From a virus: a stretch of 45,692 bases of DNA. A model generated the notes under the pieces. That model was not told the origin of the DNA. It ran no database searches and saw nothing but the letters and a program-made list of their open reading frames with translations. Made by a program: the position numbers and the translations under genes. Of the stretch, positions 7,442 through 45,692 are shown piece after piece (positions within the stretch are counted from its first letter, which is position 1; each line of letters starts with the position of its first letter). The stretch covers positions 1 to 45,692 of the IMG/VR virus record IMGVR_UViG_3300032770_000038; one strand, written 5' to 3'.

Positions 7442-8194
7442 TTAACCAAAAATCCACTCAGGAGGCGATTCATACTGATCTCTAAGTTCTTTCTTTAACA
7501 TTTCCCATTCTGCTTCTGCTTCATCTTTGATCTTTTGACCATTCAGTATCATTCCACCAGGCAATGTTACACTATTAAACTTTGAAAGATTGTTTCCCCA
7601 TTGTAGTTTGAGAAGACAGGTACCAGCTCTCAATAACCAAGGATCGGCCCAAAAACCAGCGCTAATATCTAGCTGCCTGAAACCTTCTAGCATAATGAAA
7701 TCACCAGTCTTAAATCTGGTTCCCCAAATACCATCAATATATAGAATATGATTATATCTATTAAAACGAATAGGTATCTCACCAGTGAATAGCATTTCAA
7801 GCATTCTTAGGTGTTCATTTGCTAATTCAAAATATACATAATCACCAGCAGTATAATCATATAATTCATTCAATCTAATTTGATAGTTGATATCAAACAT
7901 ATTGAAACCACCATTTCCTGCGCTATTGGTTTGAGAAGAAGCAATAGTAAATAGACGAGTTATACCTATAATATCATTTGGCATTGTAAGATAGTTATTG
8001 GCCATGTCAGCAGCAGTAATCTGATAAGAGATATACCACTTTTCAGAACCTTCTCCATGAAATGTTTGCATTTGGAGAATAGCTTCATCCACTCTATCTT
8101 CTACCTGATCCCCATCTACATTGATTTCTATAACGGGATGACCAAGTCTTCTAAAGCAGTACTGAATGAATTCTTCGCGATTAGTTGGTAGCAT
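7442..8194 (-). CDS. Neck protein (gp13-like)
   Basis: A 250-residue protein (T4 gp13 has 309). The diagnostic start is FIQYCFRRLGHPVIEINVD followed by DQVEDRVDEAILQMQTFH, the strongly conserved N-terminal signature of T4-family gp13. Later TMPNDIIGITRLF and the C-terminal helix around KDEAEAEWEMLKKELRD also fit. Gp13 binds portal and gp14 to stabilise the packaged head and create the tail-docking surface. The gene follows the last fibre gene by 7 bases. A GATAAATA late-box match overlaps that stop, but is only 4 bases from this ATG and so cannot easily serve it. Confidence 0.9.
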   Translation of the reverse strand: MLPTNREEFIQYCFRRLGHPVIEINVDGDQVEDRVDEAILQMQTFHGEGSEKWYISYQITAADMANNYLTMPNDIIGITRLFTIASSQTNSAGNGGFNMFDINYQIRLNELYDYTAGDYVYFELANEHLRMLEMLFTGEIPIRFNRYNHILYIDGIWGTRFKTGDFIMLEGFRQLDISAGFWADPWLLRAGTCLLKLQWGNNLSKFNSVTLPGGMILNGQKIKDEAEAEWEMLKKELRDQYESPPEWIFG

Positions 8195-28502: not shown

Positions 28503-28976
28503 TTATCCCTGAGGTGGAGTATCAATAAAAGAGTTAGAGTTAGGCATCCATGGTGTTCCGGCCAAAACTCCTGCTTGTGCAGGCAATCCATTAGCTGGTG
28601 GAGTAATGTTACTGATACCTGGTCTCATATATAGAATGCCTTCAAGTATTCTTGTTGTAAGATTTGAGGCATCCATCATTGTTAGGTCATAGAAATACCT
28701 ACCAGCTCTGATATTGGATGTTGTAGCCGCATTTAATGTAACTGTTGTATTACCATTCGTTGCATTTGTTATTTGAATGATAAAATTACCAGTTGTATTT
28801 GAGGTATAGTAAGATGTCTTGAATGAGCCAAAGAAAACATAGTTAGCAATGTTGACAGGAGTCCCATCAGCATTGTTAAAATTCATAGCTACAGACCAAT
28901 CAGATCCCTGATTGATGAATAGATCAGAATAGTTAACCCCAGAGCTTACATCAAAGGTAAGAGAAACACTACCCAT
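28503..28976 (-). CDS. BppU-like N-domain structural protein
   Basis: A 157-residue protein resembling the N-terminal domain of baseplate upper proteins (BppU type). The beta pattern is FINQGSDWSVAMNFNNADG, then VFFGSFKTSYYTS, then RAGRYFYDLTMMD and RILEGILYMRPGIS. In the family, this domain attaches receptor-binding proteins to the baseplate. Here it stands alone, directly before the fibre array, which fits an adaptor role. It starts 3 bases after the coiled-coil gene; an AAAGAG sequence precedes ATG 28976. Confidence 0.65.
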   Translation of the reverse strand: MGSVSLTFDVSSGVNYSDLFINQGSDWSVAMNFNNADGTPVNIANYVFFGSFKTSYYTSNTTGNFIIQITNATNGNTTVTLNAATTSNIRAGRYFYDLTMMDASNLTTRILEGILYMRPGISNITPPANGLPAQAGVLAGTPWMPNSNSFIDTPPQG

Positions 28977-28979
28977 TTG

Positions 28980-29357
28980 TTACTCTTTCTTGAGGTCTAT
29001 AATTTCCTCAACTCTTTGAACTACAGCATTTGCTACAGCATCAACTTTGTTTTCTATTGCTCTAACATCCTGAACAATAACATTTGCCATTGCTTCTACA
29101 TTTGCTTCAACTTTTTCAACAAAAGCTTCTACTTTTGGTGAAACTTCTGCAATGACATTTTGAACAGCTACTTCTGCAACCTTAACTTCTGCCTCAACAG
29201 CCTGTACTACATCCTTCAGAACATTAATAGTTTTGAAAGTAAGAAATGTAGAGTAGTCTTGCTGCAACAGAACTATAGCACCATTAGCAAGAGTCCAGAT
29301 TTGACTCCCAGGTTCGTTAACAGCATCTACTGATTTACCATCAAGTGTGATTTTCAT
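28980..29357 (-). CDS. Small coiled-coil protein under hairpin-gated start
   Basis: A 125-residue protein. Residues 1-45 form a small domain (MKITLDGKSVDAVNEPGSQI, then ANGAIVLLQQDYSTFLTF). From about residue 46 a long amphipathic, Val/Ala/Glu-rich helix (VEAEVKVAEVAVQNVIAEV, then VEKVEANVEAMANVIVQ) predicts as a coiled coil, ending IIDLKKE. Family unknown; it could be a trimeric whisker-like or chaperone protein. A GGAG ribosome site lies 8 bases before ATG 29357. Site and start codon partly fall in the 3' arm of a 12-bp inverted repeat that encloses a TATAAATA promoter, suggesting translation only from late transcripts. Confidence 0.65.
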   Translation of the reverse strand: MKITLDGKSVDAVNEPGSQIWTLANGAIVLLQQDYSTFLTFKTINVLKDVVQAVEAEVKVAEVAVQNVIAEVSPKVEAFVEKVEANVEAMANVIVQDVRAIENKVDAVANAVVQRVEEIIDLKKE

Positions 29358-29416
29358 AAGCCAGTCTCCATGTTTATACTCTATTTATAAGAGAGGAGAA
29401 GAGAAGACTGGCTTAT
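29356..29416 (-). promoter_or_regulatory. Start-sequestering hairpin enclosing a late promoter
   Basis: 12-base inverted repeat arms at 29356-29367 and 29405-29416 (minus-strand 5' arm ATAAGCCAGTCT). The 3' arm includes the end of the GGAG ribosome site, the spacer and the first two bases of ATG 29357. The 37-base loop contains TATAAATA at 29382-29389. Read-through RNA can fold over the start; RNA begun at the internal promoter lacks the 5' arm. This arrangement is known for T4 late genes such as e, soc and I-TevI. Confidence 0.65.
29382..29389 (-). promoter_or_regulatory. T4-type late promoter TATAAATA
   Basis: Perfect match to the T4 late consensus, 25 bases before ATG 29357, in the loop of the inverted repeat 29356-29416. 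Confidence 0.65.
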
Positions 29417-29472: not shown

Positions 29473-29787
29473 TTATGAAAGAATGAGGTTGGTTGGGGCT
29501 GCTGGGGTTGACTCACGGAGAAAGGTAATAGTGGATGATTCAATACCCACTGTACCTCCTTGTGCAACGACAGCCAGACCCAAAGTATGATTACCTGTTG
29601 GTAAGCTTGTGAATGTGCTCACCATTTCCAGATTCAAAGTATTGGCATAACCAATAGGAACACTAACTGCTGGCAATGAATCAATATAAACAGTAACACC
29701 AACCATGGCATTTGCTGCATCAAAAGCAGTATTGTCTGTATTGAGTGTTGGATTTGTCCATTCAAGGACATGAGGATTTGTTACCAT
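29473..29787 (-). CDS. Ig/Fn3-like single-domain structural protein
   Basis: A 104-residue protein with one beta-sandwich domain of Ig/fibronectin-III appearance: HVLEWTNPTLNTDNTAFD, then GVTVYIDS, TSLPTGNHTLGLAVVAQGG and ESSTITFLRES. It ends with a Pro/Ala-rich PAAPTNLILS. Such domains decorate many phage tails and may stick to cell-surface sugars. The ribosome site AAGGAG before ATG 29787 is strong. The alternative +1 frame continues open past the stop for 16 residues to a TGA near 29420. The following 115-base gap is the longest in the window. Confidence 0.6.
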   Translation of the reverse strand: MVTNPHVLEWTNPTLNTDNTAFDAANAMVGVTVYIDSLPAVSVPIGYANTLNLEMVSTFTSLPTGNHTLGLAVVAQGGTVGIESSTITFLRESTPAAPTNLILS

Positions 29788-29800
29788 TTATATCTCCTTT

Positions 29801-31726
29801 TTAACCTACTTTGGTGAGAACTATGTAACTATTAGCATTCACTATTAGAGTATTAGCAGCTGATATTAACTGACCGAAACGAGGGCCAAATGTTCCCTTA
29901 GTAACAACACTCACAATTCCACCAAAGAGCATCACAACCATGAATGTTGGAGGATCTGAATTATTTTGAATTTGAGTAGACATACCAAATTCAACATCAT
30001 GAAGATTACCATCATATATCCAATATGAACTACTTGCTGTTGTACCAGCATTACCAGAAGCAAAATCTAACTTCCAACCACCGGCATTATTTGCGGAATA
30101 TTGAATATACAATGCTCCTCTCATTTCATAAATACCATTTTCATTAAGATTGACAGTTAATCCCTGAATAGGAGTCATTGTTGTATTGCTTGTCCAGTTT
30201 TGAGTAACAGACTGGACACCAGCTATAGCTGTTGTTACACGAGTCACACTATTTGATAATGGACTTGAATTTGCCTGAACAGCACCAGATATATGGAAAC
30301 CACCGGTATCATCAGTCCAATAATCTGGATAGTTCTGATTAGTTAAGAACGAAGTAGTAAGGAGTGAAATACCACTAGGAGCAGTATTTCCTACAGGATT
30401 GGTATAGACTGTGATCTGACTTCCAAATTTGATATCAAATGTTGCATATGCATTACCATTCGTCACACCAGCATATACAGAAAGAGCACTATTTGCTTCT
30501 TGATAAACTGCTATAAATGCGTTGCTTCTTTGTGAACCTATAGAGTTCCAACTAATAGTAGTTCCAGGACCAATCAAGACTCGATAACCTGATGATGTAG
30601 TATAAGTATCATTAAAAATGCCTTCAATAATCATACTAGCATTTGAAGCAGGAACTGAAGCTATCTTGTAATAGGTATTACCACCAGAATTATTAGCAGA
30701 AAATATATTGAAACCAAGAGTGTATATACTCTGACCAGCATTAAAGGCTGTTGTATTGGCTATAGCACCATTATTACCTACATTACCAAATGCTATGCCT
30801 CCAATACCAAGGATATTATTTCCATCAGTAGTTACGATAGTATTATATGATTGAGCAGAATTTGCTGCTACCTGAAAGGTATTGGCGACATTATTAAACA
30901 TAATATCAGCAAATTCTGTAGAAGTTCTTTCCATCAATATATGAGAACTATCATCAGAAAATTGACCAAATCTTAGAATAAATGTATTTGATACTGTTGA
31001 AAGATTAGCCTGGAATACGGCAGAACCTTCAACCAACATGCCACCAGTTGCAACAATAGTACCTAGATTTGCATTACCACCAGGACCAATATTCCAAGTA
31101 TTATTAGCATCCAAATTAATCTGGTTGGTCACATTCATTGTGTTAAGTAGACCAGTACCAAGATTATAGGTAGTAACTCCCAATAATGTTACATTCGCAT
31201 TATTGATCCAGGCATTCTGACTGACATAGATATTACCTGTATTTGAAATAAACAGGCTATTACCAACATTGATTGTAGCTTTCTGATTAAAAAATGGGAT
31301 CGTAATAGCAGGAGTATTAGCAAGATTATTACCAGTGAAAGCAACATATCCGGCTACATTCACATTCTGAGCAGTCAAAATACCAGTTGAAATGACATTA
31401 GGACTTTGAACGGTATTTGCTACCTGTACCAATACAGTATTTGTTGGGAATGATACAGAGTTACCAACAGAAACCAAATTACCTTGATTTTGAATAGAAC
31501 CAGTTGTTAGCTGCTGTGATAAAGTTACATTACCAGAAACAGATAGCACTGTACCAGTATTAGTCAATATTAGGAATGTTCCATTGGCTAGAGTTATGCT
31601 GCCATTATCTGCATAAAACAAACCATTGCGTAGCTGATTGATAGCATTGGCAAGATTGTTTGTATTTATTAGCCAATCTTGAAAAGTATTTGATGTTCCT
31701 AATATTGAAAGATTACCATTACTCAT
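29801..31726 (-). CDS. Tail fibre with N-terminal attachment and C-terminal head domain
   Basis: A 641-residue fibre. The N-terminus (TFQDWLINTNNLANAINQLR) resembles the attachment segment of structural proteins in T4-like marine phages as I recall them. A middle region of irregular GN-rich beta repeats follows, then a segment with MLVEGSAVFQANLS and later domains. From about residue 490 it carries the C-terminal head shared with three other proteins of the window: TVNLNENGIYEMRG, WKLDFASGNAG, GTFGPRFGQ and the end YIVLTKVG. It is thus a complete fibre, unlike the shaft-only proteins of the array. It starts in an ATGA overlap with the homing endonuclease gene. Confidence 0.7.
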   Translation of the reverse strand: MSNGNLSILGTSNTFQDWLINTNNLANAINQLRNGLFYADNGSITLANGTFLILTNTGTVLSVSGNVTLSQQLTTGSIQNQGNLVSVGNSVSFPTNTVLVQVANTVQSPNVISTGILTAQNVNVAGYVAFTGNNLANTPAITIPFFNQKATINVGNSLFISNTGNIYVSQNAWINNANVTLLGVTTYNLGTGLLNTMNVTNQINLDANNTWNIGPGGNANLGTIVATGGMLVEGSAVFQANLSTVSNTFILRFGQFSDDSSHILMERTSTEFADIMFNNVANTFQVAANSAQSYNTIVTTDGNNILGIGGIAFGNVGNNGAIANTTAFNAGQSIYTLGFNIFSANNSGGNTYYKIASVPASNASMIIEGIFNDTYTTSSGYRVLIGPGTTISWNSIGSQRSNAFIAVYQEANSALSVYAGVTNGNAYATFDIKFGSQITVYTNPVGNTAPSGISLLTTSFLTNQNYPDYWTDDTGGFHISGAVQANSSPLSNSVTRVTTAIAGVQSVTQNWTSNTTMTPIQGLTVNLNENGIYEMRGALYIQYSANNAGGWKLDFASGNAGTTASSSYWIYDGNLHDVEFGMSTQIQNNSDPPTFMVVMLFGGIVSVVTKGTFGPRFGQLISAANTLIVNANSYIVLTKVG

Positions 31727-32268
31727 ATAATATCGCCTCTTGCTCTAGCAAATCTTTTCAAAGCAGATTGACGACAACGTTCTCTTGTTTCATTGCTTCT
31801 TTTCTTACCAAGATTAGATAAACTTGATTTACGTTTGCTTTCTTCTTTATGATGTCTACCTAACATACCATTATTGGGTATCCAATTGCCTTCTTCAAAT
31901 CTAATACGAATAGTGTTAGATATTTGTTGTTTTGTTTCTTCATCACGAGGTCTAGATATTTTTCCAAAACCTCCCTTACCACCAGGTACAATATTATAAA
32001 CTTTTCCTTTATGTTCCTCTAACCATTTTTCCGTTACAAGTTCGGCTTCAGCCAAATATGCATTTTTTTCTGAATCAAAATATGCAATCACTTCAACATC
32101 AAAAATTTTTCTTCCATATTTTCTCAAGGCTCTCCAAATATAATCACCAGAACCACAATATTTATCAATATATTCTATAGTTCCAAAATTTGGATCATCG
32201 GTAGCGTGAACACCAATGTAAAACTTCTTATTCTTTAGATTTGTAGATTTGTAAAGTGTATAAAACAT
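31723..32268 (-). CDS. GIY-YIG homing endonuclease with NUMOD3 region
   Basis: A 181-residue free-standing homing endonuclease of the Seg/GIY-YIG type. The N-terminal domain reads FYTLYKSTNLKNKKFYIGVH (the GIY-YIG pair being TLY and YIG), then WRALRKYGRK with the expected Arg, EAELVTEKW with the metal-binding Glu, and VYNIVPGGKGG, the typical closing Asn-Gly motif. The C-terminal NUMOD3-type DNA-binding segments are NNGMLGRHHKEESKRKSSLS and the following LGKKRSNETRERCR. Such enzymes cut DNA lacking the gene and spread by repair. It is fitted into the operon with four-base and one-base overlaps (TAATG upstream, ATGA downstream) and shows no truncation. Confidence 0.85.
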   Translation of the reverse strand: MFYTLYKSTNLKNKKFYIGVHATDDPNFGTIEYIDKYCGSGDYIWRALRKYGRKIFDVEVIAYFDSEKNAYLAEAELVTEKWLEEHKGKVYNIVPGGKGGFGKISRPRDEETKQQISNTIRIRFEEGNWIPNNGMLGRHHKEESKRKSSLSNLGKKRSNETRERCRQSALKRFARARGDII

Positions 32269-32669: not shown

Positions 32670-32878
32670 TATCTCTTCTCCAACAACATTCTCAACATAT
32701 CTTTAATCTCATTAACATCACTTCTCAATCTTTGCAGTTCTTCTTCTCTATTTCTTTCTTTTTCTAGGTTCTCAAACATTACTTGATGTCTTCTCATAGC
32801 AGAGGTATCTGTATTTATGACAGCCTTGCTATGAGAATCTTTGATCAAATTTTTATGTCCTTCAACTTTATAGAACAT
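32669..32878 (-). CDS. Small conserved coiled-coil protein
   Basis: A 69-residue protein. The N-terminal half (KVEGHKNLIKDSHSKAVINT) matches a small protein I recall beside structural genes of T4-like cyanophages. The C-terminal half is a coiled coil (ENLEKERNREEELQRLRSDV, then IKDMLRMLLEK). Function unknown. It begins one base after the 978-residue protein and ends overlapping the next start (TAATG). Confidence 0.65.
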   Translation of the reverse strand: MFYKVEGHKNLIKDSHSKAVINTDTSAMRRHQVMFENLEKERNREEELQRLRSDVNEIKDMLRMLLEKR

Positions 32879-32879
32879 T

Positions 32880-35816
32880 TTATCCTGCCGGATATGCTAT
32901 GCACTGCATTGATTGAACAACTGGACATACTGTTGTATCACTAGCATACAATACAATCTTTATGGCAAAATACTGGAACTGGCCACCCAAAGGATACTGA
33001 ACACCATTCCACTGATAACTTAGAGTACCAGATGGCAAACCATTTGGACCAAGAGCAGGACAATATTCTAGTGCAACTGGTGTTAGCTGATCTGGTGAAT
33101 TCACCGAATTAACTGATGTCATTTGAATCCAAGGAACATTAGCAAAAGCCTGAGTATCTGTGGCTGAAAGAACTTTGTAATAACATAGAACATTGGTTCC
33201 AACAGGCATTATAGCACTCAAATAAACTCTTAGATCACCAGCAGCCATACCTGTTGCTAGAGCAATTTTGCGTGTAATATATCTTGTGATACCATTACCA
33301 CCAGAAGGAGCATTTTCACCAGCCACAACAGCAGTAGCATTTTGTGGTGCACCTGGCTCAGAAATAGTGATTGTTGGGGCAACACTATAACCAGCACCCG
33401 GATCTGTTACAGTAATGAATGATACTTGATTGCCACTCATCACCATTACATTAGCTTTGGCCTGAATACCACCAGTCAAATCAGGTACACCAATCGTAAC
33501 TACAATATTATTAGCATTGATATGGTTGCCACCATTTGTTACTGAAATATTTTCTTGATTGATCTGACCAGAGTTAATAATGTTGGTCATTGCTATACCA
33601 GATAACATTTCAGTATTAAACATTGGAGACAAATCTGGATTTTGTGTCTGGAATGAAATTTGACACAAAATACTATTAGCATTACCTGGGAAGATCAAAC
33701 GTCTCTTTGTGCTATTAACTGAAGAAATAGCCAAATCCTGACCAAAATCCCATATTGTGCCTGGTGTAACCTGTGTATAGGATATATCAGGAGCAAAAGT
33801 ATTAGCCAATACAGTTAATAGTTTATAGGTCAATTCACAAGGTGAAAATGATACATCACTACTATTCAAAATGATATCATCATATGGTGTAAAGTTTGTA
33901 ATAGGCTCTATACCAAAAGTAAAAGATACTGGTTGAGTATTAAACTGAGCCTTATTCAATACAAACATTAACATTTGATTTGGAATGGCTGTCCAGGTAG
34001 AAGCATTCTGTGATTTGAAGAATGAACCTATTGAAGGTTGAGATGAAATTCTTCTTGTTCCATTAGCTCCGCCGGTACTAATATCTGTTTCACCAAGTGT
34101 AGCAATATACACTTCATAATCTGGGCTTTCACTATACAATACAATAGCATATTCTGTAGCTGGTTGTAGATAGACTGGATCTGGGAATGCAAATTTGGTA
34201 AGAGTTTGATTATTGTTAACCAAAGAACCAACATTAATACTATCTGGAGTTGTAGATACAGCTATTTGATTAAAATCAACTGTGGATGTTGCTATAATAT
34301 TGCTGGTTGGAATACCATTATTAACTTCAACAATACTCAACTGAACAGGAAATTTTGGAGAATTACCTTCAGGTATTGCATTAAACCAAATATCTACACT
34401 TGAAATGAACACGCCATAATTTGTTTGTTGTGATGTTGGTGTTGGTGTATAGAAAGTCTGTGATATAGGACTTACAGAAAATGTGCCAGTATACTGTGTT
34501 AGATTGGCGCCATTATAAACACCATTAGCAGCAACATTAGCAGCTAGTTGAGAAAATACTCCAGCATAAGTCGTATTTGGTCCTGGAGAAGCAACAACTA
34601 CCTGTGTTTGAACAGAAGGAGTTGTATGATAATAATCAGCAGCAATTGCTTTTTGTTGAGCAGCAGTTAGACCAGCTGGTTCAATAGGAGTAGCTGGAGT
34701 TGAAACTCCTGCACCCAAATAACCTTGTGAAGTATAAGCACCTACTGCTGACATTGTAGCATTAGGATCATCCACAATGATACTATCCGTGATCTTGAAG
34801 ACTTGTTTTCCAGATGGAAACTGAATAGTTGAGGTTTCTGGTAGCTGGAAAATACCAGCCAAGCGGCTAACTGAGTCAACATTAGCATAACCAATACTGT
34901 ATGTTGTATTACCATCAGGTCCTGGAGAGAATGTTGTATTGGTATATAACAAACTCCAGTTATTAACAACATTAGAAACTGTTAGAATCCTTCCCTGTTG
35001 TCCCAATCCTTGACCTGATGTTAAGAATAATGTATTTCCAACTGCGTCTGCAGGAGCAGGACCAGAAATCATTACACAATTAGCATTTGGAATAGCATAC
35101 ACATTTGTTATTTCAGCCATACCACTACGATGATCATACTGACTAACCAAAAACTTGACTGATGGAATTTCTAAATCATATACTGGTGCATTTAGAGGAA
35201 ACTTATTTCCAATAACAGGATTGTTAGCACTTACAACCTTATTGCCACCACTCAAATACAACCAGGCCTGAGTATTGGCTGTTGATGTACTATTTGAACG
35301 CATATGTCCTAATAATGGATATACAGTCAATACTTTATCAGCATTATTATAATAAACAACCTGACCTTCAAAAGTAGCATTACCTGCAACTGCAGCTGAC
35401 GTATTTGGTCCTTGATATACTATAGAACCAGGAACATAATCAGTAGCACCAAGACTATTGGCACCAATAGGAGATATATTAACACTCAAATAATTTTCAT
35501 TGATATAAACAGCGTTATTTGAACCTGTTATAACAGTTGCAAAAGCATGAGTAGTATTACAATATAATCTTGATCCTTCTCCCAAATAAGTTCCGTATAT
35601 AGTTGTAGCAATATTAGCATTATCTGGTACTAACTTTGAACCTCTTTGAGTAAAGTTATCAACATTTACATCACCAAAAAAGAAGTGTGCCAAACGATCT
35701 GGTCTAAGATTTTCAGCACGAAAATCTATTTCACGTGCACGCATGAAAGGAATAACTTGGTTATTAACTGTAGAAGAACCAATAGTTGTTTGTATTGATG
35801 TTGTTACATTTGCCAT
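32880..35816 (-). CDS. Large virion protein, companion of the DUF4815-like protein
   Basis: A 978-residue protein when started at ATG 35816 (MANVTTSIQTTIGSS); the longer frame needs a TTG overlapping the previous stop. The segment VIPFMRAREIDFRAENLRPD and the following LAHFFFGDVNVD are typical of large baseplate/tail proteins paired with DUF4815 proteins in T4-like marine phages. It contains a VYQG module (GSIVYQGPNTSAAVAGNATF) and, near the C-terminus, a G-x-GY module (FITVTDPGAGYSVAPTITIS). Other parts suggest jelly-roll domains (VDIWFNAIPEGNSPKFPVQL). It probably forms the baseplate periphery or fibre attachment, in the gp10 neighbourhood. Only a weak ribosome site precedes it, so coupling is likely. 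Confidence 0.7.
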   Translation of the reverse strand: MANVTTSIQTTIGSSTVNNQVIPFMRAREIDFRAENLRPDRLAHFFFGDVNVDNFTQRGSKLVPDNANIATTIYGTYLGEGSRLYCNTTHAFATVITGSNNAVYINENYLSVNISPIGANSLGATDYVPGSIVYQGPNTSAAVAGNATFEGQVVYYNNADKVLTVYPLLGHMRSNSTSTANTQAWLYLSGGNKVVSANNPVIGNKFPLNAPVYDLEIPSVKFLVSQYDHRSGMAEITNVYAIPNANCVMISGPAPADAVGNTLFLTSGQGLGQQGRILTVSNVVNNWSLLYTNTTFSPGPDGNTTYSIGYANVDSVSRLAGIFQLPETSTIQFPSGKQVFKITDSIIVDDPNATMSAVGAYTSQGYLGAGVSTPATPIEPAGLTAAQQKAIAADYYHTTPSVQTQVVVASPGPNTTYAGVFSQLAANVAANGVYNGANLTQYTGTFSVSPISQTFYTPTPTSQQTNYGVFISSVDIWFNAIPEGNSPKFPVQLSIVEVNNGIPTSNIIATSTVDFNQIAVSTTPDSINVGSLVNNNQTLTKFAFPDPVYLQPATEYAIVLYSESPDYEVYIATLGETDISTGGANGTRRISSQPSIGSFFKSQNASTWTAIPNQMLMFVLNKAQFNTQPVSFTFGIEPITNFTPYDDIILNSSDVSFSPCELTYKLLTVLANTFAPDISYTQVTPGTIWDFGQDLAISSVNSTKRRLIFPGNANSILCQISFQTQNPDLSPMFNTEMLSGIAMTNIINSGQINQENISVTNGGNHINANNIVVTIGVPDLTGGIQAKANVMVMSGNQVSFITVTDPGAGYSVAPTITISEPGAPQNATAVVAGENAPSGGNGITRYITRKIALATGMAAGDLRVYLSAIMPVGTNVLCYYKVLSATDTQAFANVPWIQMTSVNSVNSPDQLTPVALEYCPALGPNGLPSGTLSYQWNGVQYPLGGQFQYFAIKIVLYASDTTVCPVVQSMQCIAYPAG

Positions 35817-35820
35817 AATA

Positions 35821-38800
35821 TTAGCCGACAATCAGACCAGTGGTATTTAGAACAGTAGAAGAACCAGTTGAAGGAATATATTGCTGTAACAATCCCTGTG
35901 CTGCCAAAGCAGAAGCACTCTGGATAATCTTTGAAGGTACTGGGAACCATTGACCATTTGGAGCTAATAGACCCCACCCAGTGGCAGTTTTCTCTAAGAT
36001 TACGCAAGGAGAACCATAATACAATACTCCAGCAATACCATCACCATAACCAAATTCACCAGCTAGATTAAAGTTCAAAGCATTACCATACGTGTATGCC
36101 CAGGTTGCCATAGGATAGCAATAGGTAATCTTACCTGCCACAGCTGAAGCATATGCTCCGGCTGGTGGTGGAGGAGTTGCTGGCTTAGGCTGTGTGGTTG
36201 TAGTTGCAGGAACCAAATTAGCCTTATTTGTTGATGGTGCGGTAACTACTGGTGCTGGTGGCTTTGGTGCTGGTGGAGTAGCTGTTACTGGTGGCACATC
36301 AACTGTTGGACCAATAATCTGTGGTAGTATGCTATCACTATACCAATAATCTGTAGTTGGCCACATAGCCACCTGACCTTGGAATTGCCCAAAGGCATAT
36401 GGCTGAATCTGAGTAAAATCTGATGCAGCATTTTGCACTATAACAGGTGTTTCTGTATAAGCCAATGACCAGGTTCTTTGATTTTCATTAGCAGGACCAG
36501 TATTGCTCTGGAATACAAATGATAGAGGAGTGATGCCTTGATAGGCAGTCATTCTACCATTATTGATACTACACAACAAGTCTTGATTGGTGGTATCTGC
36601 TACACTAAAATCAACAAAGGAATCAGTAACTATACCAAATTGTTCCTTGGCTGTTGTTCCATTTTGATATAGAACTGTTTGTTGGGTAGCCTGTTGTTCA
36701 AGCTGATTCAAAGATACATAATATTCAAGGTGACTGATACGAGCATCTAATGCTCCAATATCAGACATTGTATAACGTTTGTTCTCTACATAATTCAAAG
36801 TAACATTAGCAGCAAGATATGTATATTGAGGAACATTGATTACATATAGAGTCATTGCTCCAGATTCATCTGGTGGAGTTGCTGGCTGTAATGAAGGTAC
36901 TCCAGAAATAATATCGAACTGTCTATTTTTGGTCAATATCAACTTATCAATACGAGGTAGATAATATTGATATGTCAACACCATTGAATCATCTGGTTGT
37001 GGTAAAGATAAACCAGTTAGACTAAATGATTGAATATTTGCCAAATAACCTGGTGTTCTGGTTGGTCTGAAATCTATTACGTCTCTAAGATTAACTGCTG
37101 GGAAAGAAGGAGATACATATACAGGAATAGCATTATTAGCATAGTCACTAGCGCTATAACTATCTGCGCTAAAGAAGCCATTAGTAACACTATGTGCATA
37201 ATAAGTAAGCATTACAACAGTCTGACCTGCTGGAGGAGTAGCACCAGGATTCAATATCAGCCCACCATGATCATAATAGTTATCTCTTTGACCAGAATCA
37301 AATGAATACCTTGATGTAATATCTATAGCATTTGTTACATTAGGCATGAAACTTGAGTTACCAGAATCATAAATCTTAATGATTTGAGTTACGTCTGGTA
37401 CACCCATTCCCATTCTGACACCAGGAATTTTTGTTATATCTGGATAACTACTAAACCAAACAAAACCATTTGTAGTATCTACCCATACACTACCAGCATT
37501 AACAGTACCAATAACATTTTGACCATTCAAATAACTATCAGTTACTCTCAAAACTGTATTGGCAGTATTTCCTACTAATGTCTTAGTTCTACGGAAGTTT
37601 ACAGAAGCATTAGTATCTTCTACTGTTAAAATAACATCAGCCAGGAAATTTCCTGTAGTAATAGACTTAATAGTAACACTAGTTGATGAAGTTTGATATA
37701 CTCCATTACCACCAGGATTACCATTAATATCCCAGCTCAATACTGCGCCATTGGCAAGATTAGCTGTTTGGTTATTACGCACAACCACAAAGAAGTTTTC
37801 AGCAGCAACAATATTTGTAAGATATTGATTAGTTAAACCAAATGTATATTGTTGAGCACTTGTCAAACCAGAACCTGTTCCTATTGTAGCATTACCAGAA
37901 GTAAATGCCACATTTGTCAAAGTTAATCTGGTTATATATGTTACGTTAGCATAAGTATTCTGTGCCACAAAAGTTTGTGGCAAAGGGAAATCTAATCTAT
38001 TAAAGTTGGTGCTAAAGAGAACTGTATTACCATATGTATCTTTACCACCATTAATAGAAATATCCATGACAGGATATTGACCTGCCTGAGCATTTTGGGT
38101 ATAGAATACATTACCAGCTGCTGTATTTGAAGGAGCAGCCACAAACCCATTAATGTCCTTAATACCAAACTGCAATGATAGTTGAGAAGTAGTATCCAAC
38201 AACTGAGTAGTTGGTCTATTCAAATAGCCTACCTTACTTGTAGCATTATAACTAACAATAGTTCTCACATCACCAGAAGAATTACCAGCCAATACCGTCA
38301 TTGTTACATTAGCAATAGCATTAGCAGAGGTAGTAAATGTTGCTGGTAGATTAACAGAAGTCGTATTAGAAGAAAGAGAGCTAGCATTTACAATAATTGG
38401 TGTTAGATTTACATCCAACAAATAAGCCAACCAATTATTTGCTCCATTATATTCTATATCTCTAATCTTTGTTGTACCAATCTTTGTATTCTGATAGGCC
38501 TGAGAGTTTGTAGTATTGACATTTCCAGAAGGAACTATATGAACATCCATTTGTCCAAAGTTGCCTGTATTGAAACCAACAACATTACCAGAATAAACAT
38601 TTGTCACACCAACATAGTTACCAAACTCTAATGATAGATTATAATCTGCGCTTGTATTAGTAGAACGAGCCTTTGGTTCATTCATTTTTGATGCGGCTAT
38701 AGTCTGAAACTCATAACCATCAACATAAGCCTTACCTGGTCCAATACTCAAAATTATATTATTTGAATTTATAGTATCATCAATAGCAGATACTATGAAT

Positions 38801-39699
38801 GGATTGACAGTAAAATCTCCATCAGCATCATAGGTTCTTTGGGCTAACTGATTATCAATACTACCAAGGACAGGATACTCTACCTGATTTGTAATGACAC
38901 CATTCTCAACTCTTAATAATTCAAAAAACTGACTATCATCAGTACTTGACAAATCTCTTATAGCTAAAATGAGTTCAAACTGAAATCTATCTGCTCCTGG
39001 CGCCTGATAATTGAAAGAACCTTGTGCAGGATCTAACAAAGAACTATCCTGAGCTGATGTTACAATATCCTGATTGATTTGCAATCCTACTCTACAGGAA
39101 GGGAATGCTGTTAAAGAACTTAGAACAACAGTTTGTTGAGGGACATATACAAAATAACCATCAACATAAAATACACCTTCATTAATAGACGCTATAGCTG
39201 CCTGACTAGTAGCATTAGGTGATACTAGAGTAGCTAATGATGAACCATTAGATATTTGTATCTGAGATCCATCAGCAAAAGTATTGGCTGATAGATATTT
39301 GACAATCAATGCTCCCTCAACTGTATTACTAGATACACTATCATCAGTTGCTATTACAACAGCAAGAGTATTAACATTACCAACTGGATTGATAATCTGT
39401 TCATCAGCAAAACTTGACAGAGTAATATTATCATTAGATACTAGTTGAATAGACAAAACACTATTATCAAATGTAATATGGCCACCCTGAACAGGACTGC
39501 CATTTTCAAATAGGAAATTGCCAATCTGTGATAACTGATAAGTTAACAAAGATTGTATTTGATTGAGTTCTCTTGATTGTACTGCTTGACCGGGCTTGAA
39601 TAGAACCTGTAGATAATCTTTTAGAATCTCTGCCTGAGTATCATCAAAATAAGGAGCGCTATTTTGGAAAACCTGAACTATGCCATTATTTGCTGTCAT
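35821..39699 (-). CDS. DUF4815-like baseplate/tail protein with C-terminal SH3-like domain
   Basis: A 1292-residue protein. The N-terminal region (APYFDDTQAEILKDYLQVLF, then FKPGQAVQSRELNQIQSLL) has the DUF4815 signature of structural proteins in T4-like phages of aquatic bacteria. Beta-rich domains follow, and a conserved stretch RYTMSDIGALDARISHLEYY near residues 975-995 looks helical. After a Pro-rich linker (PPVTATPPAPKPPAP) the last part has an SH3-like pattern: VLYYGSPCVILEKTATGWGL then NGQWFPVPSKII. SH3-like domains often bind peptidoglycan or proteins. It is the largest protein here, probably at the baseplate rim. The start is one base after the gp8 stop. Confidence 0.75.
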   Translation of the reverse strand: MTANNGIVQVFQNSAPYFDDTQAEILKDYLQVLFKPGQAVQSRELNQIQSLLTYQLSQIGNFLFENGSPVQGGHITFDNSVLSIQLVSNDNITLSSFADEQIINPVGNVNTLAVVIATDDSVSSNTVEGALIVKYLSANTFADGSQIQISNGSSLATLVSPNATSQAAIASINEGVFYVDGYFVYVPQQTVVLSSLTAFPSCRVGLQINQDIVTSAQDSSLLDPAQGSFNYQAPGADRFQFELILAIRDLSSTDDSQFFELLRVENGVITNQVEYPVLGSIDNQLAQRTYDADGDFTVNPFIVSAIDDTINSNNIILSIGPGKAYVDGYEFQTIAASKMNEPKARSTNTSADYNLSLEFGNYVGVTNVYSGNVVGFNTGNFGQMDVHIVPSGNVNTTNSQAYQNTKIGTTKIRDIEYNGANNWLAYLLDVNLTPIIVNASSLSSNTTSVNLPATFTTSANAIANVTMTVLAGNSSGDVRTIVSYNATSKVGYLNRPTTQLLDTTSQLSLQFGIKDINGFVAAPSNTAAGNVFYTQNAQAGQYPVMDISINGGKDTYGNTVLFSTNFNRLDFPLPQTFVAQNTYANVTYITRLTLTNVAFTSGNATIGTGSGLTSAQQYTFGLTNQYLTNIVAAENFFVVVRNNQTANLANGAVLSWDINGNPGGNGVYQTSSTSVTIKSITTGNFLADVILTVEDTNASVNFRRTKTLVGNTANTVLRVTDSYLNGQNVIGTVNAGSVWVDTTNGFVWFSSYPDITKIPGVRMGMGVPDVTQIIKIYDSGNSSFMPNVTNAIDITSRYSFDSGQRDNYYDHGGLILNPGATPPAGQTVVMLTYYAHSVTNGFFSADSYSASDYANNAIPVYVSPSFPAVNLRDVIDFRPTRTPGYLANIQSFSLTGLSLPQPDDSMVLTYQYYLPRIDKLILTKNRQFDIISGVPSLQPATPPDESGAMTLYVINVPQYTYLAANVTLNYVENKRYTMSDIGALDARISHLEYYVSLNQLEQQATQQTVLYQNGTTAKEQFGIVTDSFVDFSVADTTNQDLLCSINNGRMTAYQGITPLSFVFQSNTGPANENQRTWSLAYTETPVIVQNAASDFTQIQPYAFGQFQGQVAMWPTTDYWYSDSILPQIIGPTVDVPPVTATPPAPKPPAPVVTAPSTNKANLVPATTTTQPKPATPPPPAGAYASAVAGKITYCYPMATWAYTYGNALNFNLAGEFGYGDGIAGVLYYGSPCVILEKTATGWGLLAPNGQWFPVPSKIIQSASALAAQGLLQQYIPSTGSSTVLNTTGLIVG

Positions 39700-39700
39700 T

Positions 39701-41314
39701 TTAGAAACTCAACACTACCCTACACAGTTCTGTCTGGCTCAATCCTCTTGTTATTGGAAGAGTATTGTTTATATAAAGTATCTTGCCTGTAAATAACTGT
39801 ATATCAGGCGAAGTTAGAATAAATGCTGTCACTGGTTTTGTTTGAATTGTCCCAACGATTGGTGCGTTCTGTGTAAATGTTCCTGTAAGATTATTTAGCC
39901 AGAGAAAGTTGTTTACATTATCCCAATAAACAACAGTTGCAGAGAAGGTAGCATTGGCTAAAGTTACGCCTTGATAGACAGTTTCATCCAAACTGAAAAA
40001 TGAACCTGATGGTAGAGATTGCACACCTACTTTGCTAACAGTTGAATAGTTCAGATTGCTGGCAACATTCCCACTAGTGGCTAATGGTGCTTCTATAATA
40101 GACAACTGTCTATATTCAAAGAGACCAGCTCCAGTAGATACGCCTGTTGGTATGGTATTACTTTCACTACCAATCAACTCTACGGCTATCATTAGGTTTG
40201 TGGCACCAAGTTCATGAACAGGATCAAATCCATGTCCTCCTAGTGGTCCTATGACTGCTCTTAAATTGGCACCAACTCCTGTTACACCTGGTGCAGCTGT
40301 AATAGTTGCAACAGTGTAGTTTTGTCCTGGATTCAAAATATTGATATTTGTAATAGAACCAGAAGCATTTGTGACAGCAGTCAAGTTGGCACCAGTACCA
40401 TCACCTTGAACTGTAAGAATAGTGGCAGAGTTCGAAATAACATTCTGATTATAACCAGTACCGCTATTATTGATTAGAATGATGTCTAATCTACCATTCA
40501 CAGCAGAAGCAACAGCCACTGGATCTGAATACACTGGCATCCATTCTGGTGTCAAAAATAATTGCTTTTGACCTGCTGGAATGGTATAAAGATATTTCCA
40601 TTTATATCCATCTGGTGTTACAATATATGCGCTTTCTGGTAAACTACCCCCAAGACTAATCTGTGGCATCGTATTTGAAGGAGTATTAGCATTATTGTAT
40701 AAACAGATAAAGACCTGATCATAGATATTTCTAGCATAGAAAGTATTCACATAATCTGGAGCCGTGTTAGTAACAAGATAGATATTATTTCCAATTACAT
40801 TACCACTGAATGTTGTAGCAACATTCAATGTGACATTATCAAAGACATCAGTTACCAATAATAGCTGTGAGGCAACATTGATTTCATCACCTGGTAGGAA
40901 AATCTGATCTCCAGAAATAATCTCACTCACAAATGCAGTATTTGTACCTCTCAATGTTCTAGTATTGAAAGAAGTTACGGTTCCTGGTAACTGTGCATAA
41001 GAATAAAAACTGTACATATCTACAGCATCATCCCAGGCAGCATATGTTACTCCTGTTTGCCAATCAACTCTTGGCACAACGTAGGTCATGTCTGCAGCAG
41101 TAATTTTCTTCAATGCAATTAGATTTCTATAGACATTATTGATATAGTCTGTGCTCTGATTAGGAATAGGTAACTGAGCATCACCATTAGAATAGGGAGT
41201 TTCTACTCCTATTCCTAAGAATACATTGGCTTGTGACCAATCATTAATCACATCATTAGCCAACTGTATCTTTTGATTATAGGTTATTTCTGAACTTTCT
41301 GTTAATGTTCCCAT
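39701..41314 (-). CDS. Baseplate wedge protein (gp8-like)
   Basis: A 537-residue protein, longer than T4 gp8 (334). The N-terminus has NVFLGIGVETPYSNGD and YRNLIALKKITAADMTYVVP. The gp8-type core is YDQVFICLYNNANTPSNTMP, followed by YIVTPDGYKWKYLYTIPAGQ and TPEWMPV. The additional length includes two G-x-GY modules (ILINNSGTGYNQNV and INILNPGQNYTVAT) and one VYQG module (DETVYQGVTLANATFSATVV). Gp8 is a wedge component joining gp7 and gp10 in T4. A CATAAATA late box lies 22 bases before ATG 41314, so transcription may start here. Confidence 0.8.
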   Translation of the reverse strand: MGTLTESSEITYNQKIQLANDVINDWSQANVFLGIGVETPYSNGDAQLPIPNQSTDYINNVYRNLIALKKITAADMTYVVPRVDWQTGVTYAAWDDAVDMYSFYSYAQLPGTVTSFNTRTLRGTNTAFVSEIISGDQIFLPGDEINVASQLLLVTDVFDNVTLNVATTFSGNVIGNNIYLVTNTAPDYVNTFYARNIYDQVFICLYNNANTPSNTMPQISLGGSLPESAYIVTPDGYKWKYLYTIPAGQKQLFLTPEWMPVYSDPVAVASAVNGRLDIILINNSGTGYNQNVISNSATILTVQGDGTGANLTAVTNASGSITNINILNPGQNYTVATITAAPGVTGVGANLRAVIGPLGGHGFDPVHELGATNLMIAVELIGSESNTIPTGVSTGAGLFEYRQLSIIEAPLATSGNVASNLNYSTVSKVGVQSLPSGSFFSLDETVYQGVTLANATFSATVVYWDNVNNFLWLNNLTGTFTQNAPIVGTIQTKPVTAFILTSPDIQLFTGKILYINNTLPITRGLSQTELCRVVLSF

Positions 41315-41335
41315 ACTATATCTCGTTATTTAATC

Positions 41336-41343
41336 TATTTATG
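41336..41343 (-). promoter_or_regulatory. Late promoter-like box CATAAATA
   Basis: A NATAAATA match 22 bases before ATG 41314 (gp8-like), overlapping the TAA stop of the gp7-position gene, in one of the few gaps of the baseplate block. Confidence 0.5.
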
Positions 41344-44002
41344 GCTGCCATATCTGATACTGCACATTGTCAAAATATGGCCATACCAGGTAGCCTACAT
41401 TGGTTGAATTGCTTGAAAAGACTGTATTGAGCTTTATCCAACCATTAGCATCATTAGCAGATAAAACAATAGAAGTTTGAACATTGCCTGATAAATTGGT
41501 AAAGATAATATCATTGGCTATCAAATTGCTAGTATTACCAGTTGAATATACAATATTTGAACCATTAGTTATAATTAATCTATCTGGAGCAAAATATTCT
41601 GTATTTGATTCTAGTAGCAAAGAAGTATTGCTGATAGTAGTGATGATATTTTTAACCTGTAAACGAGAGTTGTTAGAAGACAATACAATCAAATCTCCTG
41701 CTAACACATTACTACCTATGAATAATGTATTAAATCCTGTAATAATACCATTAGCAAAAGCATTAACAGTTATTGTTCCTTGAACATTAGCTGTATTTGA
41801 TAACCAAGTTTGAATAGGAGTATTACTATCATTCTGTTGTGTATTATCTGTAATCGTGTAGATACCCAGCATTTTCATACCAGCTGGATGAACTATCCTC
41901 TGAACAGCTGTTTGATAATCTGATAACTGTTTTTCTACTTTGATTTGATATGAATAGTTATGATAGGTAACATTATCTTGCAAATGTTGATCTGCGCTCA
42001 AGAAGCCATCGGTACCTAACCAGAATCCCGGATATTTGTTTATACCACTAAAGAATACAGCATTAGCTTTTGCTTTACCATTACCATAAGTATTGGCAGA
42101 TATAGGAGTAGCATTAAAGTTAGCACCTATCAACTGCTCTGAAACATTAACAGAACCAATATAATTGTATAATCTAAGAATAGAATTTGTTCTGTCATAT
42201 TGATCTACAAATGCTACAAAGGTGGCTGATCCTAAACTTGTGCCCTGATAAACAGTATCTGTCTGAAAGTAGAACTGATTGTTACTAATAGGAACAATAG
42301 TTATATCCTCATTTCTTAGAGATACCAAAGGATCAGATACATAGTTGAAACCTTCATTAACCAAACGTATGGTCTCAATTCTACCAATATCAGATACAGA
42401 AAGATCCAATATTTGGCCATCATTATCTCCATAGGCCTGAAGGGAAGCACCAGAACCAGCAGAAGCATTAGCTGGATTGGCACTATTACCTACATAGATA
42501 GGAGGCTTAGGTATTGGATAACCAAATCCACTATTAGTTATAAAGACATTGGTAATGGCGCCAGTATTACTAGTAATGAAACCAAATGTAGCATTATACC
42601 CATAGGCGCAATCAACATAGATAGAATCTGTTACATTTGAATAACCACTACCACCATTCAAGATAACTACTGCTGCTATTCTACCAATATCTCTAACCGC
42701 ACCCTTAGCATTGATATAGTTTTGATAGGTTGTTGGATTAGAGTTGGCCAAATATATTGCATAAAGAGCATTGCTGTAATCTGTATCAAAAACAGATAGA
42801 AGATTCAATGATGGTATTTGTCTATAACCACTACCACCAGCAACCACAAACATAGATTTAATTGGTGCGACATTAATCGTGGTATATGAAAATGTTATAT
42901 TGAAATAAGAATTCAAATTAGCATTTGTATTATTAGCGAATTGGTATGTAGTATTTCCTAATGTAATATTAGCTTTGTAATAGATACTATCAGTATTCAA
43001 CATCAATGAAACTGTATTAGGAACATCCACAGCATTCACAATAACATTAGCACCAGAACCAGTGTCTCCTGGAGCATCTACTACTGTTACAATGGTATTA
43101 GGATCTAGCTGATAACCCCATCCACCTCTTTCTACTGTGATTGATTCAATAGATCCCCGAGATACATTGCCAACATATGCCACAGCCTCAATAGATTGAT
43201 TTGAATTAGCCAAACCACCAATGATAGATACAGGATTACCATTATATTGAATAGCACCATTGCTATAGTATTGAGTACCTACATATAATAATCCTTCATT
43301 ATTTGGATCCACATTAATGGCCGTGACTATACCAATAATCTCTTCTGTAAATATAATAGGATTGCCAAGATCATCATTACCACAGTAGAAAGAAATATCT
43401 TCACCTAGATCAAATGCTCCAGAAATACTTGATAAGAATATCTCCAAAACTTCCTGATTTAAAGTAGGATCTACATACAAATCAACTGACTCAACAACAC
43501 AGGTCGTATTTGATTCTGATCCTACTCCCAATCTACCTATCAACTGAGTTATATCAAAATTACCCATGTAAATAAATTTTAATGATTGTGGTTGCTGCCA
43601 CTTACCATCACTCAAACGTAGAATATTATTTTTAGGATAGTATATTTCAGAATCAAGATTATAAAGAACTCTAAACAAAAACTCCAAACTCTCTTCACTG
43701 CCTTTAGTCTGATAGAACTGTGTTGCTACTTTTAAGAGCTTTTGTGTATTGAGTGCAGTCTGATTTGGAAAATATGGTAGAAAATCATTTTGAAAATATT
43801 GAAGGAACTGATCACTGGTCGTATCTACCAATGCATTGTTAAGTAGGTTTCTAATCTGATAAACTACATTACCTTGATCAGAATCTTCCATCCATCGAAA
43901 ATAAGTTTGAAGAAAGTTAATGAAGTTAGGATAACTATCTTGAATGTAAGCTGGAAACTGCGAAGGAACAAATGCAGAAATCGTATTCTGTAGTGCGACC
44001 AT
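41339..44002 (-). CDS. Baseplate wedge protein, gp7-position
   Basis: An 887-residue protein between gp6 and gp8, where T4 has gp7 (1032). The N-terminal 135 residues are well conserved in T4-like aquatic phages as I recall: FPAYIQDSYPNFINFLQTYF, LLKVATQFYQTKGSEESLEF and YYPKNNILRLSDGKW. The body carries at least five G-x-GY modules (for example ITVERGGWGYQLDPNTI and VVILNGGSGYSNVT) and a VYQG module (DTVYQGTSLGSATFVAFVDQ). The late segment YSYQIKVEKQLSDYQTAVQR is also conserved and is followed by VHPAGMKMLGIY. It probably acts as the wedge organiser that holds gp6, gp8 and the rim, as T4 gp7 does; direct homology to gp7 cannot be shown from here. Confidence 0.7.
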   Translation of the reverse strand: MVALQNTISAFVPSQFPAYIQDSYPNFINFLQTYFRWMEDSDQGNVVYQIRNLLNNALVDTTSDQFLQYFQNDFLPYFPNQTALNTQKLLKVATQFYQTKGSEESLEFLFRVLYNLDSEIYYPKNNILRLSDGKWQQPQSLKFIYMGNFDITQLIGRLGVGSESNTTCVVESVDLYVDPTLNQEVLEIFLSSISGAFDLGEDISFYCGNDDLGNPIIFTEEIIGIVTAINVDPNNEGLLYVGTQYYSNGAIQYNGNPVSIIGGLANSNQSIEAVAYVGNVSRGSIESITVERGGWGYQLDPNTIVTVVDAPGDTGSGANVIVNAVDVPNTVSLMLNTDSIYYKANITLGNTTYQFANNTNANLNSYFNITFSYTTINVAPIKSMFVVAGGSGYRQIPSLNLLSVFDTDYSNALYAIYLANSNPTTYQNYINAKGAVRDIGRIAAVVILNGGSGYSNVTDSIYVDCAYGYNATFGFITSNTGAITNVFITNSGFGYPIPKPPIYVGNSANPANASAGSGASLQAYGDNDGQILDLSVSDIGRIETIRLVNEGFNYVSDPLVSLRNEDITIVPISNNQFYFQTDTVYQGTSLGSATFVAFVDQYDRTNSILRLYNYIGSVNVSEQLIGANFNATPISANTYGNGKAKANAVFFSGINKYPGFWLGTDGFLSADQHLQDNVTYHNYSYQIKVEKQLSDYQTAVQRIVHPAGMKMLGIYTITDNTQQNDSNTPIQTWLSNTANVQGTITVNAFANGIITGFNTLFIGSNVLAGDLIVLSSNNSRLQVKNIITTISNTSLLLESNTEYFAPDRLIITNGSNIVYSTGNTSNLIANDIIFTNLSGNVQTSIVLSANDANGWIKLNTVFSSNSTNVGYLVWPYFDNVQYQIWQP

Positions 44003-44011
44003 TTTATGCTC

Positions 44012-45692
44012 TTATATAGATGGTCTTGTATATGTAGTCACTGTGATAGAAGCTGGATCTGTTGGATCAAATACAAGCACATTATTAAATGAAGAAGTAA
44101 AATAGTTGCTCAATGGTGGTACATAAAGAGACAAAGTTCCAGAAGGATTATTCACACTTATTGGATTAAAGTTTGTAAGAGTTATGATACCATTAATATA
44201 ATCAATAGTGCCAACATTTTCATTTAGAACCGTCTTGATATTATTTTGATCAAAGTAGTAAGAACGCAATGTACCAACAGAGTTATCTATTTCTGCTTGA
44301 AGCACTGCTCCAGAACCACTATCACCTTCTATTAATACTGTTGCAGTTGTATATTGTGCTCCTGATATATCTACCACAACTGACTCTATTTGACCATTAA
44401 CAACTACAGCATAAGCATTCGCACCAGTTCCATCGCCTTCTATAATCAAGGTAGGAGTAGAGGTATAACCAGAACCAGAGTTCATTACATCAATAGAACT
44501 AATACCTGTACTTGATGCTGGTACTTCTTCAATATAACATTGACGAGCTGTTCCAGTTTGATCATTTTGTGTAAAAGTAGGAGAAGAATATAACTTATTT
44601 GTACTGATACCAACTTTTAATGGAATTTGACCAAAAGTTAGTGTATATGTTTGGGTCTGATTAGTTACAGGGATAAATCTTTTCTGTAAATAAACACTAG
44701 AAAAGTTGCCAACGATAGAAGGATCAGAATCATCAATAGCAGCAAGCAAACTACTCAAAACAAAAATACTATTAAACTGATTTAGATTGGTATTAGCCCA
44801 GGCTATGGCTGCATTAGAAGCTATAGAAGCAATTTGATTTGATGTTTTGGTTGTTTGTGTAGGATCATAACAAACAATCATTCTAAAGTTCATAAAATTT
44901 TCATTAGCAGGAACATATTCTGGTGTAACTGTTAATACACTTAATGGTTCAAGCACCTGCTTAATCAGATATTGTTGTTGTGCCTGTGTAACCTGAAAAC
45001 CTGTCAAAGGGACAGCACTAATGAATACTTTTCCATAAACAGGAGGATTGCTCTGTTCACCACCCCAAACATTAATAGATTGAAAGAATGGATACTTCTT
45101 ATTGATTAAGGCAATATAATCTGGAACAGTGACAGCACGGTTCTGTGACAAATAACTCTTAGGAGCACTGAAAGCAATACTAGTACCTGTTTCTGCAGGA
45201 CTGCCACCACTTGATGATACTGCTGTCGTAACATTTGCTGTTGAACCTGATAATAGAGGACTTTGTAACTGGAAAACTGTTAAACCATTAGCAGGAGAAC
45301 CTGTTGTAGATATATAGGTAACTATAACCAGATTTCCATCATCCAATTGAGTACCTAGGATCCCATCGCCAAAATAAATCTGATAGTTGCCAGTTTGACC
45401 AATATCTATATAATAAACATTACTATCACCATCAACATCCACAGCATTTTCTGCTAAAGAGAATGTATTTTGAGATAGATTAGTATTACTTGTTTGAACA
45501 ATAACCTGTAGAGTACTTGTATCAACAGTGCTATCTACTAAATCAAATATTTGTGTAGGATTGGTAGAACTATCTACGACAAAGGTTTTAGTAATGGCCT
45601 GACCTTCTGCTATTACTATACCGGTGAAGGTAAAGGTATTGCCCACATTAGAAGCAGTTACTGTATCTATAGTCAAGAAGTTGAAAGATTGG
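44012..45692 (-). CDS. Baseplate wedge protein (gp6-like, Baseplate_J), partial at 5' end
   Basis: At least 559 residues; the frame stays open to the window edge (a possible TTG at 45676 is not a convincing start), so the N-terminus is missing. T4 gp6 has 660. The Baseplate_J signature is IYFGDGILGTQLDDGNLVIV followed by TYISTTGSPANGL. After that come SYLSQNRAVTVPDYIALINK and FFQSINVWGGEQSNPPVYGK, both typical of gp6. Near the C-terminus two G-x-GY modules occur in tandem (IDVMNSGSGYTSTPTLIIEG and VVDISGAQYTTATVLIEG). Gp6 dimers form the ring of the baseplate wedges that opens on contraction. It precedes the gp7-position gene by 9 bases. Confidence 0.85.
   Translation of the reverse strand, partial: QSFNFLTIDTVTASNVGNTFTFTGIVIAEGQAITKTFVVDSSTNPTQIFDLVDSTVDTSTLQVIVQTSNTNLSQNTFSLAENAVDVDGDSNVYYIDIGQTGNYQIYFGDGILGTQLDDGNLVIVTYISTTGSPANGLTVFQLQSPLLSGSTANVTTAVSSSGGSPAETGTSIAFSAPKSYLSQNRAVTVPDYIALINKKYPFFQSINVWGGEQSNPPVYGKVFISAVPLTGFQVTQAQQQYLIKQVLEPLSVLTVTPEYVPANENFMNFRMIVCYDPTQTTKTSNQIASIASNAAIAWANTNLNQFNSIFVLSSLLAAIDDSDPSIVGNFSSVYLQKRFIPVTNQTQTYTLTFGQIPLKVGISTNKLYSSPTFTQNDQTGTARQCYIEEVPASSTGISSIDVMNSGSGYTSTPTLIIEGDGTGANAYAVVVNGQIESVVVDISGAQYTTATVLIEGDSGSGAVLQAEIDNSVGTLRSYYFDQNNIKTVLNENVGTIDYINGIITLTNFNPISVNNPSGTLSLYVPPLSNYFTSSFNNVLVFDPTDPASITVTTYTRPSI

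Follow-up and report, generated by a model that had tools for sequence, protein, structure and literature searches.

A putative late promoter enclosed by a predicted ribosome-site hairpin in the structural gene block of a divergent T4-like phage

Hairpins that combine a late promoter with a ribosome site have been described for T4 e, soc, 49, I-TevI, I-TevII, I-TevIII and segB, and also for Aeh1 mobE (PMC3014915, PMC2988022), and the T4 genes among them are said to be late genes carried on early or middle polycistronic RNAs (PMC2988022). Ribosome-site structures are also reported for the T4 baseplate genes 25 and 26 (PMC2988022). Late promoters of the form NATAAATA are known from the marine T4-like phages S-PM2 and Syn9 (PMC2984593); the available part of that source deals with the promoter boxes alone and makes no mention of enclosing hairpins or terminators. 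In the open-access literature we found no account of a marine T4-like phage with hairpin-enclosed late promoters. The locus described here would extend this textbook T4 device, known mainly on early or middle transcripts, to a block of late structural genes in a highly divergent phage.

The window, by which we mean the whole 45,692-base IMG/VR record analysed, is a T4-type late block whose long genes all lie on the minus strand, with fibre-like genes and an LtfC-like gene placed between the VrlC-like and neck genes (Table 1). With cultured phages its gp6 shares no more than 35% identity, the top two being Methylophilales phage Melnitz and Pelagibacter phage Mosig, and with the best IMG/VR contig 46%; a DNA-level search of the phage collection with the window gave no match. 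Judged by these comparisons, it comes from an uncultured T4-like phage that is very divergent from any named phage. The VrlC-like gene is read in two overlapping frames (32880-35831 and 35821-39699, minus strand), and is a single long ORF in Melnitz, Mosig and S-CAM3; the two frames apparently reflect either a natural split or a frameshift or assembly error. At 32791-32837 an inverted repeat surrounds an ATAAATA/CTAAATA; these bases code for the conserved (I/L)NTD of a small virion protein gene. Similar repeats of 9-11 bp, with arms that differ among phages, stand at this site in two other loci (L046 ~524 and L035 ~1284; L and G numbers are our own for loci and genomes), and may be either a coding coincidence or an internal promoter.

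Table 1. Positions of the genes recognised in the window and of the parts of the hairpin
Feature	Position	Strand	Basis or remark
gp6-type baseplate wedge gene	44012-45676	-	
Further baseplate wedge genes	39701-44002	-	
VrlC-like protein, two ORFs	32880-39699	-	
GIY-YIG homing endonuclease gene	31723-32268	-	phrog_314, SegE-like; sits among structural genes
Upstream genes (104 aa; 641-aa fibre-like protein)	29473-31726	-	ORFs; read-through RNA would bear the hairpin
5′ arm, RNA AUAAGCCAGUCUUC	29403-29416	-	Absent from the loop-promoter transcript; 12 bases perfectly complementary to 29356-29367
Putative T4-type late promoter TATAAATA, in loop	29382-29389	-	Promoter activity predicted
Predicted transcription start	29375 (+/-2)	-	Six bases past the box, predicted from T4 late promoter spacing
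Shine-Dalgarno GGAG	29366-29369	-	Entirely within the 3′ arm
3′ arm GGAGACUGGCUUAU	29356-29369	-	Spans Shine-Dalgarno, spacer and AU of AUG
Controlled gene, 125 aa	28980-29357	-	ORF
LtfC-like gene (L-shaped tail fibre assembly family)	28503-28976	-	phrog_1084, 2.7e-21; phrog_3304, 2e-17
Neck genes	7442-8194, 6270-7157	-	
Sheath-stabiliser gene	5424-6194	-	
Small terminase gene	4182-4592	-	

The gene behind the hairpin encodes a 125-residue protein predicted to have a pair of short N-terminal strands followed by one long helix, residues 18-123 (AlphaFold2 in single-sequence mode, mean pLDDT 86). No homologue was found by tblastn, in PHROGs, Pfam or PDB sequences, with IMG/VR peptide patterns or in any of the fetched loci. 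The LtfC-like gene begins 3 nt downstream and is probably co-transcribed with it. Upstream, the N-terminus of the 641-aa protein resembles proteins found immediately before LtfC in two relatives (L011 and L264), and a peptide-pattern search of IMG/VR gave no relatives of the 104-aa gene. Small helical proteins precede LtfC also in S-CAM3 and L029; similarity in sequence between the 125-aa protein and that of S-CAM3 is not detectable, so a role in fibre assembly is only a guess.

The initial annotation had described a perfect 12-bp inverted repeat at 29356-29416 with a perfect late promoter in its 37-base loop, and both are present. The arms occupy 29356-29367 and 29405-29416, and TATAAATA is the only exact copy of that box on either strand of the window, where about five per strand would be expected from dinucleotide content. 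On the minus strand, which is the functional one, the 5′ to 3′ order is 5′ arm, TATAAATA, GGAG and ATG (29357-29355). In the minimum-free-energy RNA fold (-25.6 kcal/mol, z = -6.5, with none of 200 shuffles equally stable) the stem lengthens to 14 pairs, 29356-29369 with 29403-29416, and the added U-G and C-G pairs, one of which is a G-U, draw in the remainder of GGAG. The repeat had been said to cover part of the ribosome site, the spacer and the first bases of the start codon; spacer and start bases stand, but the 3′ arm lies over the complete GGAG and reaches to the AU of AUG, which makes the predicted sequestration fuller than that. Other late promoters in the window are of the form CATAAATA and lie 22-23 nt before ATG (41343, 16814 and 12909), so the spacing of the loop promoter is ordinary and its enclosure is not. 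The 5′ arm begins 56 nt past the last upstream stop codon, and ribosomes terminating there should therefore leave the hairpin unmelted. A five-codon frame, Met-Glu-Thr-Gly-Leu-stop (29371-29354, minus strand), opens within a few bases of the predicted late 5′ end and closes in an ATGA overlap with the start of the 125-aa gene.

We computed the cost of opening the region from -12 to +3 for a read-through RNA modelled from 120 nt upstream of the start and for a late RNA modelled from 29375, the value given by the initial annotation, six bases after the box. Opening costs 23.0 kcal/mol in the read-through RNA versus 4.2 in the promoter-begun RNA, a difference of 18.8. The same script gives 11.0-14.4 for T4 e, 11.8 for I-TevII, 10.0 for segB, 9.0 for 49 and 7.3 for 26, and between -3.5 and +3.8 for six control genes with ordinary late promoters; the computed switch is thus larger here than in every T4 case measured in this way. 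The asserted block of read-through RNA and freedom of the internal RNA hold for the folds, with the effect on translation predicted from them. In an unsupervised scan for NATAAATA, a Shine-Dalgarno sequence and ATG, ranked on the pairing of an upstream arm with the start region, the window site came 1st of 58 and later 2nd of 316 (~165 loci). The top 20 included T4 I-TevII, segB, e, 26 and 49, and since the T4 genes recovered are those named in the literature (PMC3014915, PMC2988022), the scan has a positive control.

The layout of T4 e, soc and I-TevI that had been claimed for this site is therefore present. As in the e/soc/49/I-TevI group, the late promoter follows the 5′ arm and precedes the start codon, the Shine-Dalgarno sequence and/or AUG are base-paired in the longer RNA only, by both fold and opening energy, and the loop promoter is so placed that its RNA excludes the 5′ arm. 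The window differs in that its hairpin stands in a late structural block, ahead of genes for a 125-aa helical protein and an LtfC-like product, in the larger predicted switch, and in that no early or middle transcript is in view, the recognised neighbours being of late type in a window that is itself a fragment. Since such a transcript is common to the described T4 cases, the hairpin is not a plain member of their group. With T4 25 and 26 it shares virion-assembly genes, a late promoter and an upstream arm that pairs with the Shine-Dalgarno sequence; those genes, however, lie with uvsY in overlapping early and late units, and the pairing at 26 is much weaker. The loop promoter has the same box as the S-PM2 and Syn9 late promoters, in contrast to the other genes of the window.

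We consider it likely, from the computed fold and energies and by analogy with T4, that the element is a composite of late promoter and translation block, a T4-type switch; this is our most likely reading. RNA reading through from the upstream fibre genes would contain both arms, its GGAG and the AU of its AUG would be buried, and the 125-aa gene would go untranslated. A gp55-type late sigma factor would initiate transcription near 29375, at a position in the loop past the 5′ arm, and the resulting short-leader RNA, which in the computed fold is unable to form the hairpin, would be translated; probably only RNA begun at the loop promoter is. The 125-aa gene, and probably the LtfC-like gene too, would thereby depend on its own late promoter; this would insulate it from how much upstream fibre transcript is made, and when. 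Insulation is proposed as the use because of the late surroundings and because terminators occur among the parallel devices at the next gene, and it fits better than the original proposal that early or read-through expression is harmful.

That proposal corresponds to a temporal purpose as in T4 e and I-TevI, in which the gene lies on early or middle RNA whose translation has to be prevented because the protein would do harm at that stage. The mechanism would be identical to that of the T4 cases (PMC3014915), and the GIY-YIG homing endonuclease gene, for which a hairpin of its own is not obvious, lies 2.4 kb upstream; such genes can bring non-late promoters. The recognisable neighbours of the 125-aa gene, however, are without exception T4-type genes for baseplate, neck, fibre or packaging proteins, all on one strand, within the fragment that the window covers, so early read-through over the gene is not indicated, and sigma-70-like sites number 20 versus 20.2 in shuffles. 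Relatives, moreover, show termination at the next gene, not timing of its expression, and we think a temporal purpose unlikely. The nearest relatives by LtfC or gp6 identity (L011, G001 and G002) count against this wider proposal and against the T4-type switch alike: they have late-promoter-like motifs, but no such enclosing hairpin at the corresponding place, and in L011 LtfC is preceded by another gene, of 168 aa, with a plain AATAAATA. The device thus comes and goes.

The parallels at the next gene come from 83 loci in which the 75 bases before an LtfC-like start were read, LtfC-like relatives numbering hundreds. Several sequence-unrelated hairpins with a late box in the loop were seen there, and in marine T4-like phages such a device is often present at the LtfC start. 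In type A, acacaaTCCTTATAAATAga..AAGGAgactgtgtTCGATG, TCCTT pairs with the Shine-Dalgarno sequence and the outer bases can reach the AUG; type B, AGACCTTCCTTATAAATAACAAGGAAGGTCTTTTTT, is a terminator-like stem that encloses the late box and has a U-run; type C, ACCCCTTGCTAAATAGTGAGGGGTT or AAAAACCTTCTCAACTAAATAGACTGAGAAGGTTTTTTT, is terminator-like with a CTAAATA loop; and the element of L047, CTCCTGTTTatactaaatagaagaAAACAGGAG, covers a Shine-Dalgarno sequence. Promoter-in-loop elements stand at the boundary of fibre gene and LtfC-like gene in L041, L058, L080, L029, L015, L054 and Melnitz (MZ577097, about 107.27 kb), a cultivated isolate with a type A element. This points to a device that recurs at a single junction between genes among marine T4-like phages and is testable in Melnitz. 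Stems of at least 8 bp enclose late promoters at 14 of 63 LtfC starts versus 16 of 333 other late-motif starts (Fisher p 3e-5, a value that is too small because the sampled phages are related); the better argument is that unlike sequences form the same topology at one junction.

Scanning IMG/VR with the pattern CTTATAAATA-N8-24-GGAGACTG, which the window also matches, gave 51 stretches, 38 of them (our count) directly before LtfC-like starts, several from contigs already sampled, and the remainder mostly chance. Arm sequences differ among the elements before LtfC-like starts, yet they pair with the Shine-Dalgarno sequence. Type A pairing is kept in 87% of cells, versus 39-65% in slid controls, and three pairs are changed on both sides; covariation in type A was not above shuffles. 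Type A is defined by CCTTATAAATA and an anti-Shine-Dalgarno arm directly before an LtfC-like start, and the window element is not of this kind, as the two have only CTTATAAATA...GGAGACTG in common and the window element precedes the 125-aa gene. The marine elements precede LtfC itself, and types B and C are terminator-like rather than ribosome-site hairpins; on sequence, homology of the marine elements to that of the window is unproven.

Terminator-like hairpins whose loop contains a T4-type late promoter (TATAAATA or CTAAATA) lie directly before LtfC-like genes at L029:9952, L042:9953, L045:4616, L033:969, L015:9950 and L021:1084, and in L054, L060 and L063-L068. Such a hairpin appears to be a stop-and-restart element, which would be a compact one for transcription and would escape terminator scans that need short loops or separate promoters from terminators. 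We tentatively suggest, as a possibility rather than an expectation, that marine T4-like phages use compact insulators, each a late promoter in a hairpin loop, to start accessory modules inside late operons (fibre assembly and, as in Melnitz, gp5-like hub genes). In some lineages the hairpin would terminate the RNA coming in and in others it would conceal the ribosome site, with the topology kept and the sequence and biochemical step exchanged.

These U-run stems around a late box (AGACCTTCCTTATAAATAACAAGGAAGGTCTTTTTT) at LtfC starts of relatives also favour seeing the window repeat mainly as a terminator or 3′-end stabiliser for the upstream fibre mRNA, the loop promoter reflecting compact packing. 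An intrinsic terminator, however, has a short-loop GC-rich stem and a U-run, whereas the loop here, at 37 bases, is long and the sequence continues past the 3′ arm into ATGAAAATC without a U-run; a terminator scan of the window did not call the hairpin at 29356-29416, and the 3′ arm lands exactly on the Shine-Dalgarno sequence and AUG. A role of this kind is improbable. A DNA operator palindrome flanking the promoter, or the ends of a small mobile element, would make the RNA fold incidental. I-TevI does bind an operator at its own late promoter and represses it (PMC2988022), and a homing endonuclease gene is nearby, but the arms are set at unequal distances from the promoter (13 nt and 12 nt, counted from the 14-bp arms) yet fit the Shine-Dalgarno sequence and AUG exactly, and between phages the arms are entirely different while the ribosome site is still covered. 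No second copy of the arms was found, and a DNA-pattern search of IMG/VR gave one match, rejected as chance since it lies inside coding sequence of an unrelated phage; we regard both forms of this explanation as very improbable. A functionless chance repeat is scarcely credible: 12-bp repeats with loops of at most 60 bases are by themselves only mildly unusual (three in the window versus 0.33 expected per shuffled window, the other two apparently within coding sequence), but when promoter and start region were kept constant, no enclosing 12-bp stem arose in 5,000 shuffled leaders and two of the 5,000 matched the pairing strength with the start region, and the site's top rank among late promoters and the positional parallels at the next gene also argue against chance.

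Beyond this junction the enrichment is slight, the strong signal being local to LtfC. In eight other T4-like genomes and part of T4, 4 of 363 late motifs are enclosed by at least 10 bp versus 0.2% (p 0.011), and the eight genomes have about one enclosed site each, among them those at the gp5-like hub gene of Melnitz, at an LtfC in G004 and at a DSL-LC03 gene that starts within the 3′ arm. Anti-Shine-Dalgarno 4-mers show an approximately twofold excess immediately upstream of TATAAATA (20% versus 9-11% per family). A preference for the promoter's own arm across late promoters (71 families, p 0.023) is lost without the top six families (p 0.18), so the idea that every late promoter carries an anti-Shine-Dalgarno sequence was rejected as a general rule. 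Before gp5-like hub/lysozyme genes in Melnitz (L009:15168, about 76.3 kb, AATCCCTTGT[tcgtcttATAAATAgatgc]ACAAGGGATTTTTT) and at L156:2992, an enclosed late promoter is followed by a T-run, with the Shine-Dalgarno sequence in the 3′ arm; the Melnitz hairpin sits after a tRNA gene. Two further sites look, from their sequences, like T4-type hairpins: TCCTTTTTAT[ATAAATAAA]ATAAAAAGGA over the Shine-Dalgarno sequence of a GIY-YIG-like gene (L026:10070), and ATAGTAGACCTT[ATAAATAAAATAAA]AAGGTCTACTATG in DSL-LC03 (L232:822), with the AUG in the 3′ arm.
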